Below are positions 5,247 to 8,964 of a stretch of DNA of 64,000 nucleotides, piece after piece. Where the stretch lies: the NCBI GenBank assembly GCA_013001885.1, contig JABDLD010000009.1, forward strand, positions 1 to 64,000. The letters are read 5' to 3'. Below the pieces are notes generated by a model that was not told the DNA's origin, did not search any database, and saw only the letters and a list, made by a program, of their open reading frames with translations. A program made the translations under genes and the position numbers. The first letter of the stretch is position 1. Each line of letters begins with the position of its first letter. This DNA is from Lysobacterales bacterium (GTDB lineage Bacteria; Pseudomonadota; Gammaproteobacteria; Xanthomonadales; SZUA-36).

Positions 5247-6497
5247 CTAGCCCGATGCCTGCACCGAGGCCTTCGCGTCCTCACCAACGTGTTTGCCGAA
5301 AAGAAACAACACTCGAGGTTTGCGCCTGCCATTCAATGTCGCCCCAATGAAGGTTGAGCGAACCAAAAGGTCATACAACAGGAGCGAGATGGCGATCGTT
5401 GCCACCGAGATCGCCGGCAGCTTGATTGACCAGTGGAGGGGCAGCTCGGCAACGGCAACCTGCAGCCAGATGACGATCGGCAGGTGACTCAGGTACAGCC
5501 AGTAGGACGAGTCCGCAACATAACGCACTATCGCGCTCGGCCGATCTAAAAATCGCTTGAAGAGCCCGATCGTGAGCGAGATCAGCGACCACATCATAAC
5601 GGCGTAGCTCAGCGCGAAGCCGGCCTTCAGCATGGGGTATTGGGGATGCCCGGGATTCGACTGGAACCCGGCAAGAACTATCGCCGCGGCCACGGCGATC
5701 ACACACAATGCAAACCTGCTCCATGTCAGACGCGCAAACTGCTCGATCAACCCTTTCTCACGATGCAGCAACCAGCCAAACAGGAAGAAAGCGGTGTAGA
5801 TCAGCAACACGGGGATATTCGGGACGAGGGACTTATCCGGCGTATCCAGACCCCAATGCGGCATAAACCACAGGCAGGCGGACGTCGGGATCGCTATCAC
5901 CGGGATAGCCATCCTGGAGCTGGAAATCCATGCGACTGCCGTATCCGCTGCACGGGACAGGGCGGACTGCAGTGGGGTGTGCAGGCTGACGAGCCAACGC
6001 AGGACGAGGATGCCCGCCGTGACGAGCATCAGGTAATAGAGAAACCACAGGTGTGAGCCAACGAACAGGCCGCTCGGAAGTTGGCCCAGTGACGCGAAGC
6101 CAGCCAGCAAGGCCGACGGCACGTTCGCTTCGCCCCGCATGCTCTCTGCGCCCATGATCCATCCGGATACAAGCAGCGGCCGCAGGATAAACCAGCCGAC
6201 GACAAATGGGACAGCAATCCGGACGAGCCGCGACTTCAGGAAGGCAGGCGCGCCCTTGCTGTGAAACGCCATGTGGCTGAAAAAGCCCGCAACGAGAAAG
6301 AACAACGCCATGCGAAATGAGTGGCTGACGAGCATGAATACGGACACGGCAGAACCTGTGGAAACGTCCATCACCGCCCAGCCGATGTAGATCGGCATGA
6401 ACGACAAGCTCGCGTGGAACACGATACCGAGGATGAGGGCGAACGCCCTCACGGCATCCAGGTAGTCCAGCCTGTTGAGCTGTGTTGTCATGTTCAT
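5247..6497 (-). CDS. Membrane acyltransferase, acyltransferase-3 / OpgC-like
   Basis: The 416-residue polytopic membrane protein has about ten hydrophobic segments. It opens with RLDYLDAVRAFALILGIVFHA, the typical first helix of acyltransferase-3 proteins with the conserved Arg and His. The family O-acylates sugars, glucans or lipids at the inner membrane; the OpgC-type proteins modify periplasmic glucans. It starts 3 nt after the CIA30-like gene, so the two are probably co-transcribed and translationally coupled. The promoter of this pair is shared in type with the divergent sigma factor. Substrate unknown. Confidence 0.8.
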   Translation of the reverse strand: MNMTTQLNRLDYLDAVRAFALILGIVFHASLSFMPIYIGWAVMDVSTGSAVSVFMLVSHSFRMALFFLVAGFFSHMAFHSKGAPAFLKSRLVRIAVPFVVGWFILRPLLVSGWIMGAESMRGEANVPSALLAGFASLGQLPSGLFVGSHLWFLYYLMLVTAGILVLRWLVSLHTPLQSALSRAADTAVAWISSSRMAIPVIAIPTSACLWFMPHWGLDTPDKSLVPNIPVLLIYTAFFLFGWLLHREKGLIEQFARLTWSRFALCVIAVAAAIVLAGFQSNPGHPQYPMLKAGFALSYAVMMWSLISLTIGLFKRFLDRPSAIVRYVADSSYWLYLSHLPIVIWLQVAVAELPLHWSIKLPAISVATIAISLLLYDLLVRSTFIGATLNGRRKPRVLFLFGKHVGEDAKASVQASG

Positions 6498-6500
6498 GGC

Positions 6501-7103
6501 CTAGTAGAACCCGACTTCTTCGAGCTCAAAATCGTAGGAACCGTTCTGCACGTCGAAGGCGACAATGCTCAGGCTTGCGATCGTCCTGGTGTTCAGCGAC
6601 GTCTGCTCCGACCAGGCCCGTTTCATAGTATCGAAGGGAATCTCCACCTCGTGAAACTGGCCGTCTGACTTCACCAGGATAGGAGCCGCGTGGTAGTCGA
6701 AGTTCGTCACCTCCGTGCTGTTGGCCGAGACCGAAATCATGCCCTTGTTGATCTTGACGAGCAGCCGTATGCCTTCGAATGCGCTGGCGTCTTGCGGCAG
6801 GCCCTGCGAATCGAGAATCAGGACGGAGCTGGCCCAGCCCGGCTGACCGCGCGGTGGAGCGATTTCGCCGGACACTGTCAATATGCCGTCCGCGACTTTG
6901 GGTGACATCGTTGTGCCGCCGCCGGCCATCGAGTCGCTCAGAAACTGCCGCGCGACGCCCATGCTGTTGACCTCAGCGTTGCTGAAGTCGTCCACGACTC
7001 GACTCAGTGTGTCAGCGGCGCCGTGACCAGGGGCAGCCAAAAGCGCGACGAGGACCAGGCCGGGTGCGAGAGAGCAAGCTATACTTTTCAACGATTTCAT
7101 CAT
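6501..7103 (-). CDS. Secreted CIA30-like domain protein
   Basis: The 200-residue product has a signal peptide (about 1-30, cleaved near GHGAADT). The rest resembles the CIA30/galactose-binding jelly-roll family: 'VVDDFSNAE' near the N-terminus, a 'FEGIRLLVKINKG' strand, and 'TIASLSIVAFDVQNGSYDFELEEVGFY' at the C-terminal end, the usual hallmark. A GGAG ribosome site precedes the tandem ATG. In bacteria such domains are found in periplasmic or surface proteins of unclear role. It is first gene of a two-gene operon with the acyltransferase, so a role in binding a cell-envelope glycan is a reasonable guess only. Confidence 0.7.
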   Translation of the reverse strand: MMKSLKSIACSLAPGLVLVALLAAPGHGAADTLSRVVDDFSNAEVNSMGVARQFLSDSMAGGGTTMSPKVADGILTVSGEIAPPRGQPGWASSVLILDSQGLPQDASAFEGIRLLVKINKGMISVSANSTEVTNFDYHAAPILVKSDGQFHEVEIPFDTMKRAWSEQTSLNTRTIASLSIVAFDVQNGSYDFELEEVGFY

Positions 7104-7178: not shown

Positions 7179-7210
7179 TAAGTGCCGCGGAGCAGCGGAA
7201 AGGTGACAAA
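7179..7210 (-). promoter_or_regulatory. Candidate ECF sigma promoter for the CIA30/acyltransferase operon
   Basis: Reading the minus strand, TTTGTCACC (7210-7202) is followed after exactly 16 nt by GCACTTA (7185-7179). The identical -35/-10 pair with the same spacing lies on the plus strand at 7274-7305. Predicted start is near 7172, giving a leader of about 70 nt. Confidence 0.7.
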
Positions 7211-7273
7211 AAAAAATGAAATTCAGGCGGTTTCGCCACCGAAATAAAAAAATGGCGATCGGGCAGCAATAAA

Positions 7274-7305
7274 TTTGTCACCTTTTCGGGACAGCAGGGC
7301 ACTTA
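7274..7305 (+). promoter_or_regulatory. Candidate autoregulatory ECF sigma promoter
   Basis: TTTGTCACC (7274-7282), 16 nt, then GCACTTA (7299-7305) match the divergent promoter. The TGTCAC -35 type resembles that of some ECF groups (ECF41 uses TGTCACA/CGTC), but the -10 differs. A start near 7311 would make the TTG at 7312 untranslatable and favours ATG 7333 for the sigma gene. Confidence 0.7.
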
Positions 7306-7332
7306 GAGGTATTGGCCCCACGAGAACAGGCT

Positions 7333-8964
7333 ATGAGCATATTCAGAAGACGAACCAAAGGCCTCGATTCGAGTGACAGCGATCTTGTGATCGCGTCGCT
7401 CGGCGGCGACCGTAATGCATACGGTGTCATCGTTTCGCGCTACCAGAGCCTGCTGTGTTCGCTGGCCTATTCTTCGGTCGGAGACCTTAGCTTCAGCGAA
7501 GACATCGCCCAGGAGGCCTTTGTCGAGGGCTGGAAGAAACTCGATACCTTAAAAGAGCCCGCGAAGCTGAAGGCCTGGTTATGCGGCATCCTGCGCTTCA
7601 AGGTCAGTCACTTTCGGCGCAAGGAGGCGAATCAGCCGGTCAAGGGCGCCGATGAACTGGACGAGAGCCGCGTGCAGGAATCAAAAGAACTGAAAACGGA
7701 GGACGCCGTCATTCGCAATGAAGAACAGGCCCTGCTGTGGCGGGCCATTGAAAACGTACCCGATACGTACCGCGAGCCCCTGATTCTGTTTTACCGCGAG
7801 GACCGATCCACCAAGCAGGTCGCTGACGACCTCGATCTTTCGGAGGAAGCCGTCAAGCAACGACTGTCTCGTGGCCGCAAGCTGCTGCAGGCGGAGATGA
7901 CGAGATTCGTCGAAAGCACGCTGAAGAAGAGCAAACCGGGAGCGGCGTTCACGACGAGTGTACTCGCGGTGATTTTTTCCATTCCACCGCCTGCGAAGGC
8001 CGCTTCACTGGGCACGGCGGCGGTGAAAGCCGGATCCTGGTTGAAATGGGCCAACGTTTTGACTGTCGTGGCGACATTCTCCGGTGTCATCAGCACCTTC
8101 TTTGGACTGAGGGCAAGCCTGGATCAGTCCCGCACCCAACAAGAGCGAAACGCCGTGTTCAGGACCGTGGCGATCCTCTTTCTCTACCCCTTGGCCTTCG
8201 TTGCGATCCTGTTTGCCTGCAGGCAATTGGCGCTGGGATACAGCGAGTACGCCGGGCAGATTGCGATCGCTTCGCAATTGATGGTGATCGGCTTCGCCGT
8301 GAGTTACACGATTGCCACGATTCGTATCCTGGCAGGCCTGAGCGCGTTAAGAGCACAGCAACGCGAGTTGCATCCAGAAGCTTTCCGGGACGAGGTCGAT
8401 CGGGTGGATTCCAGGGCGCGTGAGTACCGCAGCCGGACTCGCCTTGCGGGCGTACCGCTTTTCCACTTTCGGTTTGGCATGCCGGAGCAGAATGAAGCGC
8501 CCATCGTTGCCTGGGTGGCGGGCGGCGGTGAGAAGGCCTTCGGACTGCTGTTTGCCTGGGGCGGAATCGCGGTCGCGCCGATCAGTGTCGGCATCGTGTC
8601 GTTTGGTCTGATCAGCATCGGCGTCGTCGGTTTTGGTTTGTTTGGTGTCGGCACCGTAGCGATTGGCGTCATCGGTTTCGGCGCCGCCGCGATTGCTTAC
8701 AAAGCCTACGCGTCACTGTCGGCGCTGGGTTGGGAGAGCGCGTTCAGCCAGGGAATTTCCATCGCAAAAGAAGGCGCGATCGGCGCCGTGTCCATTGCCG
8801 AGCAGGCAAACAACGAAAAAGCGTTCGAGATTGCCAATCTAACAGCCGTGGGGCAGAGCTACCTGTGGATCCTGGGCGCAATCGCCGTGCTCGTAATCGT
8901 TCCGGCCGCCTGGCACTCAACGAAAGTACGCCAACGAATGGGGAAGAAAGGCAGAAAGGACTAA
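7333..8964 (+). CDS. ECF sigma factor fused to a membrane domain
   Basis: The 543-residue product combines a sigma-70 ECF core with a membrane module. Region 2 lies at about 27-95 (YQSLLCSLAYS, AQEAFVEGWK) and region 4 at about 135-190 (VPDTYREPLILFY, then a helix-turn-helix LSEEAVKQRLSRGR). Hydrophobic segments follow at about 204-220, 239-260, 275-298 and 308-334. Then comes a 'YRSRTRLAGVPLFHFRFG' linker and seven exact five-residue repeats ending in Gly (416-450), with a last helix near 512-535. Such chimeras keep the sigma factor membrane-attached, probably with the tail acting as built-in sensor or anti-sigma. ATG 7333 is preferred over TTG 7312 because of the promoter position. No separate anti-sigma gene is seen. 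Confidence 0.85.
   Translation: MSIFRRRTKGLDSSDSDLVIASLGGDRNAYGVIVSRYQSLLCSLAYSSVGDLSFSEDIAQEAFVEGWKKLDTLKEPAKLKAWLCGILRFKVSHFRRKEANQPVKGADELDESRVQESKELKTEDAVIRNEEQALLWRAIENVPDTYREPLILFYREDRSTKQVADDLDLSEEAVKQRLSRGRKLLQAEMTRFVESTLKKSKPGAAFTTSVLAVIFSIPPPAKAASLGTAAVKAGSWLKWANVLTVVATFSGVISTFFGLRASLDQSRTQQERNAVFRTVAILFLYPLAFVAILFACRQLALGYSEYAGQIAIASQLMVIGFAVSYTIATIRILAGLSALRAQQRELHPEAFRDEVDRVDSRAREYRSRTRLAGVPLFHFRFGMPEQNEAPIVAWVAGGGEKAFGLLFAWGGIAVAPISVGIVSFGLISIGVVGFGLFGVGTVAIGVIGFGAAAIAYKAYASLSALGWESAFSQGISIAKEGAIGAVSIAEQANNEKAFEIANLTAVGQSYLWILGAIAVLVIVPAAWHSTKVRQRMGKKGRKD

Follow-up and report, generated by a model that had tools for sequence, protein, structure and literature searches.

Paired promoter motifs suggest that an ECF sigma factor with a predicted membrane extension drives its own gene and a divergent CIA30/acyltransferase operon

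Background

Sigma factors of the ECF41 group combine an ECF sigma domain with a large C-terminal extension, and a conserved promoter is found before one neighbouring target transcript and sometimes also before the sigma gene itself (PMC3426412). No broad regulon was found for ECF41; its promoter consists of a -35 element TGTCACA and a -10 element CGTC, its extension is soluble and SnoaL-like, and its targets encode a carboxymuconolactone decarboxylase, an oxidoreductase or an epimerase (PMC3426412). In ECF48, ECF52, ECF53 and IutY (ECF243) the sigma domain is continuous with a membrane region that is thought to keep the sigma factor inactive, and for IutY activation by proteolysis has been shown (PMC8999054). 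These proteins contain a zinc-finger or FecR-type anti-sigma part, with one to two TM helices in ECF48/52/53 (PMC8999054).

Here we analyze a locus in which an ECF sigma gene with a large membrane extension lies divergent from an operon of two genes, encoding a CIA30-domain protein and a membrane acyltransferase. In a literature search we found no paper that joins an ECF sigma factor with CIA30, and no regulatory study of bacterial CIA30-domain proteins.

Results and discussion

Two copies of one motif between divergent genes

The locus lies within a window of 64,000 nucleotides, which is the whole stretch of DNA that was analyzed. Its features are the following (P_sigma and P_target denote the putative promoters of the sigma gene and of the operon, respectively; bits refer to the orthologous loci for the promoter elements and to the Pfam models for the proteins):

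5247..6497, - strand: Acyl_transf_3 / MdoC-like membrane acyltransferase, operon gene 2 (PF01757, 104.8 bits)
6501..7103, - strand: CIA30-domain protein with a signal-peptide-like N-terminus, operon gene 1 (PF08547, 31.1 bits, cut-off 24)
7179..7186, - strand: P_target -10 element GGCACTTA (11.5 bits)
7202..7208, - strand: P_target -35 element TGTCACC (13.0 bits)
7210-7202 and 7185-7179, - strand: P_target motif copy, TTTGTCACC and GCACTTA
7209..7275: gap of 67 bp between the outward-facing -35 elements, with A/T tracts upstream of each promoter (UP-like)
7274-7282 and 7299-7305, + strand: P_sigma motif copy, TTTGTCACC and GCACTTA
7276..7282, + strand: P_sigma -35 element TGTCACC, with a 16-bp spacer to GCACTTA (13.6 of 14 bits)
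7298..7305, + strand: P_sigma -10 element GGCACTTA (11.4 bits over 8 positions)
7333..8964, + strand: ECF sigma factor of 543 aa with a large C-terminal membrane extension (Pfam sigma70 r2 + r4, TIGR02937, AlphaFold2 model)
7933..8961, + strand: C-terminal extension, about residues 201-543, with hydrophobic helices (234-346 and 503-536) around a predicted beta-solenoid (391-488)

The intergenic region holds two copies of TTTGTCACC-N16-GCACTTA, placed back to back and facing outward, one per strand. The first-pass annotation had described an identical motif occurring once on each strand with equal spacing, a 12-bp repeat formed by its arms, and an orientation with one copy toward the sigma gene and one toward the CIA30 operon. 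Each of these points is exact: the coordinates match on both strands, the arms AAAGGTGACAAA (7199-7210) and TTTGTCACCTTT (7274-7285) form a perfect inverted repeat, and the distance to the start codon is 27 bp from the end of the + copy (likely ATG of the sigma gene at 7333) and 75 bp from the end of the - copy (ATG of the CIA30 gene at 7103). A TTG at 7312 is a poor candidate for the start of the sigma gene, because transcription is expected to begin at about 7311-7312.

The pattern TGTCACC-N15..19-GCACTT matches twice in the 64-kb window, against 0.01 matches expected from shuffles. The genome scan that had been suggested as a check was performed with TGTCACC-N14..18-GCACTT and yields just two matches in the entire 3.3-Mb genome, both in the sigma/CIA30 intergenic region (0 genome-wide for a reversed control pattern).

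The sigma factor and its target operon

A protein was accepted as an ECF sigma factor when it had sigma-70 regions 2 and 4 only and an ECF profile score above the curated cut-off. In the window's protein PF04542 and PF08281 score above their cut-offs (regions 2 and 4), and the superfamily-level ECF model of NCBIfam, TIGR02937, scores 79.7 bits (cut-off 42.9); the same model is matched by 70/70 sigma orthologs. No equivalog cut-off is reached among the NCBIfam models shown.

Past the sigma core the protein continues for about 340 residues. In the full-length AlphaFold2 model the beta-solenoid (residues 391-488, encoded by 8503-8796) has mean pLDDT values per ten residues of mostly 88-97, and its sequence is a hydrophobic repeat with a glycine about every five residues. 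When modelled by itself, the extension comes out much the same (pTM 0.81). The extension of the window's sigma factor matches no Pfam family above its cut-off, zinc-finger families included, and no fold match with E <= 0.001 was found among PDB chains. Taken together, sequence and predicted model suggest that the sigma factor may be regulated at the membrane through this extension.

On the target side PF08547 is matched by 20/20 scanned CIA30 orthologs (E <= 0.01), and the MdoC model matches the acyltransferase below its cut-off. Of the divergent ORF candidates in the orthologous loci, 59/60 are homologs of the window's CIA30 protein and 57/57 of its acyltransferase, and acyltransferase orthologs lie at the equivalent place in 57 loci.

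Conservation across orthologous loci

Scanning bacterial and archaeal genomes, we obtained 80 sigma loci from Gammaproteobacteria (Woeseiaceae, Cellvibrio, Gilvimarinus, Alteromonas relatives and others), Verrucomicrobiota and a complete Acidobacteriota chromosome (L083); a few of the 80 come from metagenome bins, whose labels may be wrong. The nearest relatives of the sigma factor are found in Woeseiaceae bacteria (72-75% identity), so that the host probably belongs to this gammaproteobacterial family. For 67 core loci a promoter was called if the top-scoring motif in the roughly 320 bp upstream reached 12 or more out of 15. The motif proves to be present before the orthologous genes, where its absence would have spoken against the first-pass annotation: P_sigma is called in 66/67 and P_target in 57/67 loci, compared to 0.19% for shuffled sequence. 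The missing P_target copies are explained by an operon that is absent, moved, collinear or degraded, by a contig end, or by a weaker and more distant site.

The consensus of the orthologs consists of a -35 element TGTCACC(TTT), a spacer of 16 (15 in 10 P_sigma and 4 P_target cases) and a -10 element GGCACTTA. Information is confined to these elements, with flanks averaging about 0.34 bits per position. The sigma gene's own putative promoter thus resembles that of the target and is conserved in orthologs, which is the pattern by which autoregulation was judged.

We also observed a distant subfamily in Verrucomicrobiota (L199-L208 and L211; 38-43% identity), most members of which keep TGTCACC before the sigma gene. 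Here the -10 element differs, with CCACTTATGCG or a similar sequence being frequent, and these loci showed no strong divergent copy.

Rearranged, reduced and decaying loci

Loci with a changed gene order show where the motif goes. In Neiella (L058) an inserted gene parts the operon from the sigma gene, and a perfect copy is found directly before CIA30, 1.7 kb away from the copy of the sigma gene. In an Opitutaceae locus (L095) CIA30, acyltransferase and sigma gene are collinear and the sole strong copy lies before CIA30; with no copy before the sigma gene, this is the one P_sigma exception among the 67. In another case (L061) the region upstream of the sigma gene is cut by the contig end; the target copy precedes CIA30 on a different contig of this genome. 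Four loci from genomes without a CIA30 gene (L059, L067, L075 and L079) have kept P_sigma and lack P_target, and in L096 (4383-7269) CIA30 is lost, a relic of P_target remains and the sigma frame is shortened to 423 residues. The motif follows the genes in both rearrangement and loss, and therefore motif and genes evolve as one unit.

Two further observations concern the spread and the variation of the locus. Its patchy distribution (4/39 genomes in the window's family), together with relatives in other phyla, suggests joint horizontal movement of the three genes; no relative was found in 72,556 plasmid records. In L167 a tandem pair of target promoters (3011 and 3280) precedes CIA30, with a small membrane-peptide-like frame in between.

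Co-occurrence with the sigma gene and size of the regulon

Within the window's family the sigma gene is present in 4/39 genomes, and the motif (scanned as TGTCACCT-N13/14-GGCACT) is found in exactly those 4, with two copies each, one match per strand (Fisher p = 1.2e-5). The 247 genomes in the family of L054 (Paraglaciecola) show a similar association for the strict motif: 16 have both, 8 only the sigma gene, 8 only the motif and 215 neither (odds ratio 54, p = 7e-14). The 8 motif-only genomes compare to a chance estimate of about 7, based on pattern length and genome size. Where the strict pattern is absent from sigma-carrying genomes (8/24), the sites that were read are variants, for example TGTCACT or GGTACTTA.

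Outside the locus there are about 29 one-mismatch sites in 49 sigma-carrying genomes, against 14 for the reversed pattern, and 4 strict sites in 24 sigma-carrying genomes where 0.7 are expected (p = 0.007). Ten off-locus sites were inspected and are mostly not positioned as promoters. Single cases do look plausible: a perfect copy in an Algicola bin (L155:250-278, - strand; 9.2 Mb and possibly mixed) precedes a gene with a 2TM domain (PF13239) that is cut by the contig end, and another in a Glaciecola bin (L165:2484-2512) precedes a short frame for a 47-residue membrane peptide.

A wider regulon was considered and rejected, as off-locus sites are few and mostly unlike promoters, and the plausible ones belong to single genomes without shown conservation. 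Judged from these sites, the core regulon would normally comprise the sigma gene and a single operon of two genes, and some lineages may have individual extra targets. The small regulon of envelope genes claimed earlier thus stands for the CIA30/acyltransferase operon and the sigma gene, but not for a broader set.

UP-like tracts and spacing of the two promoters

Aligned on the first base of TGTCACC, the A/T profile of the orthologous loci shows at both promoters a T-run from about -15 to -10 and an A-run from -8 to -4; the window's own A/T tracts are less regular than this profile. The pattern resembles the UP element consensus of E. coli, and it suggests contacts by the alpha C-terminal domains of RNA polymerase.

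Across orthologs the gap between the -35 elements ranges from 8 to 159 bp, with clusters at 8-10, 20-22, 29-32, 42-46, 51-56, 63-67, 76-80, 85-88, 118-119 and 151-159 bp and a few outliers at 36-37 and 95 bp. For the first set of loci the best period is about 11.0 bp (R of about 0.7), which is stable when relatives are collapsed at 65-90% identity. In thirteen loci added later the agreement with the predicted phase is weaker (mean cosine 0.36, p = 0.03); path-disjoint pair differences give a weak signal (p = 0.07). Phasing-free simulations of gap evolution along the sigma tree give p <= 0.004 where the indel rate agrees with the divergence that is observed; null models with slow indels are not rejected (p up to 0.74), but their rates misfit the observed gap divergence. 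A by-product of periodic A/T tracts was tried as an explanation and rejected: the A/T profile upstream of the promoters has no peak at 10.5-11 bp, its sole feature being the UP-like tract that adjoins the -35 element. Overall, we believe that the quantisation of the gap at about 11 bp is likely real, though it was noticed after the fact.

The relative orientation of the two -35 elements depends on the helical repeat: they have nearly the same face at 10.5 bp per turn and nearly opposite faces at 11.0. One rather speculative reading, which we regard as doubtful, is that the promoters are kept in helical register (gaps near 10, 21, 31, 44, 54, 65, 76 and 87 bp), so that two holoenzymes are rotationally fixed relative to each other and transcription of both genes by a membrane-bound sigma factor takes place on a single DNA segment drawn to the membrane. 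Should the phasing be confirmed, it would indicate, in a way open to testing, that the divergent polymerases or the tethered sigma factor interact geometrically.

Interpretation of the motifs

The two motifs are very likely the promoters of the adjacent ECF sigma factor, driving its own gene and the divergent CIA30/acyltransferase operon. Of the claim that they are the recognition sequence of this sigma factor, the conservation, the co-occurrence and the movement with the genes are borne out, and from these we infer direct recognition. The sigma-target module is real and deeply conserved, and it is probably autoregulated.

The leading alternative, which was rejected as very improbable, is that the 12-bp inverted repeat serves as an operator to which a dimeric repressor or activator binds between the two genes, and that the promoters are ordinary sigma-70 promoters. 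The perfect symmetry of the arms and their seemingly helically phased spacing, as in cooperating operator sites, would fit an operator, but it does not account for a conserved -35/-10 pair at a fixed 15-16 bp on each side, beyond the arms, nor for an arm spacing that varies from 8 to 159 bp or for the single copies in operon-less loci and in the collinear L095. Moreover, the shared three-gene core contains no other regulator gene, which also speaks against the idea that another regulator always travelling with the module could in principle recognize the motif.

Slightly less probable still is that a different ECF sigma factor of the cell recognizes the motifs and has the membrane sigma factor among its targets. 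There are ten other sigma-like matches to the query in the genome that could play this role, but the motif occurs there exactly twice, solely beside this sigma gene, and its presence tracks this gene across the 39 and the 247 related genomes. The possibility that the match arose by chance or through a recent inverted duplication is practically negligible: the elements of the two window copies are very similar, but their spacers and flanks are mostly unrelated, 0.01 matches are expected per window, and loci from three phyla have retained both elements.

Conclusions

With the motifs read as promoters of the adjacent sigma factor, the following mechanism can be proposed. The extension would hold the sigma factor at the membrane in an inactive state, by analogy with IutY and ECF41 (PMC8999054, PMC3426412), until the sigma domain is exposed, either by a signal from the envelope or a polysaccharide or by proteolysis. 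The resulting holoenzyme would then activate P_sigma and P_target; activity of P_sigma would amplify the sigma gene in a positive feedback loop, and the induced operon may modify an exported glycan, polysaccharide or envelope component. Both the membrane control and the function of the operon are suggested here by analogy.

The locus would represent a compact and complete unit of one sigma factor, two promoters and one operon, with a DNA code that is readable from sequence in distant bacteria. Its sigma factor appears to have a membrane domain of its own, of a kind absent from Pfam and from solved structures, and would offer an example of a signal passing from the membrane to RNA polymerase inside a single protein. 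In addition, bacterial CIA30-domain proteins are linked to a regulated acyltransferase.

For its class placement the sigma factor was compared with ECF41, ECF48/52/53, IutY and SigW. The nearest solved relatives of the sigma core are SigW, RpoE and AlgU (PDB 5wuq, 8z6g, 1or7), which have a separate anti-sigma protein and other promoters; the SigW equivalog of NCBIfam is rejected with 95.4 bits against a cut-off of 209. As in ECF48/52/53 and IutY, the sigma domain runs on into a membrane region, but in the present protein a hydrophobic beta-solenoid is predicted between several hydrophobic helices. Membership of ECF48/52/53 is rejected, given several hydrophobic segments rather than one or two TM helices and no zinc-finger match. 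ECF41 differs from the present system in its -10 element (here GGCACTTA), in its extension (here hydrophobic and multi-helical) and in its targets (here CIA30 and acyltransferase), and membership was rejected since there is no SnoaL match in Pfam, the -10 element is not CGTC and no COE-type target gene is present. In logic, however, ECF41 is the closest published parallel: both systems have a fused extension and a single neighbouring target, and TGTCACC is only one base away from the TGTCACA of ECF41.
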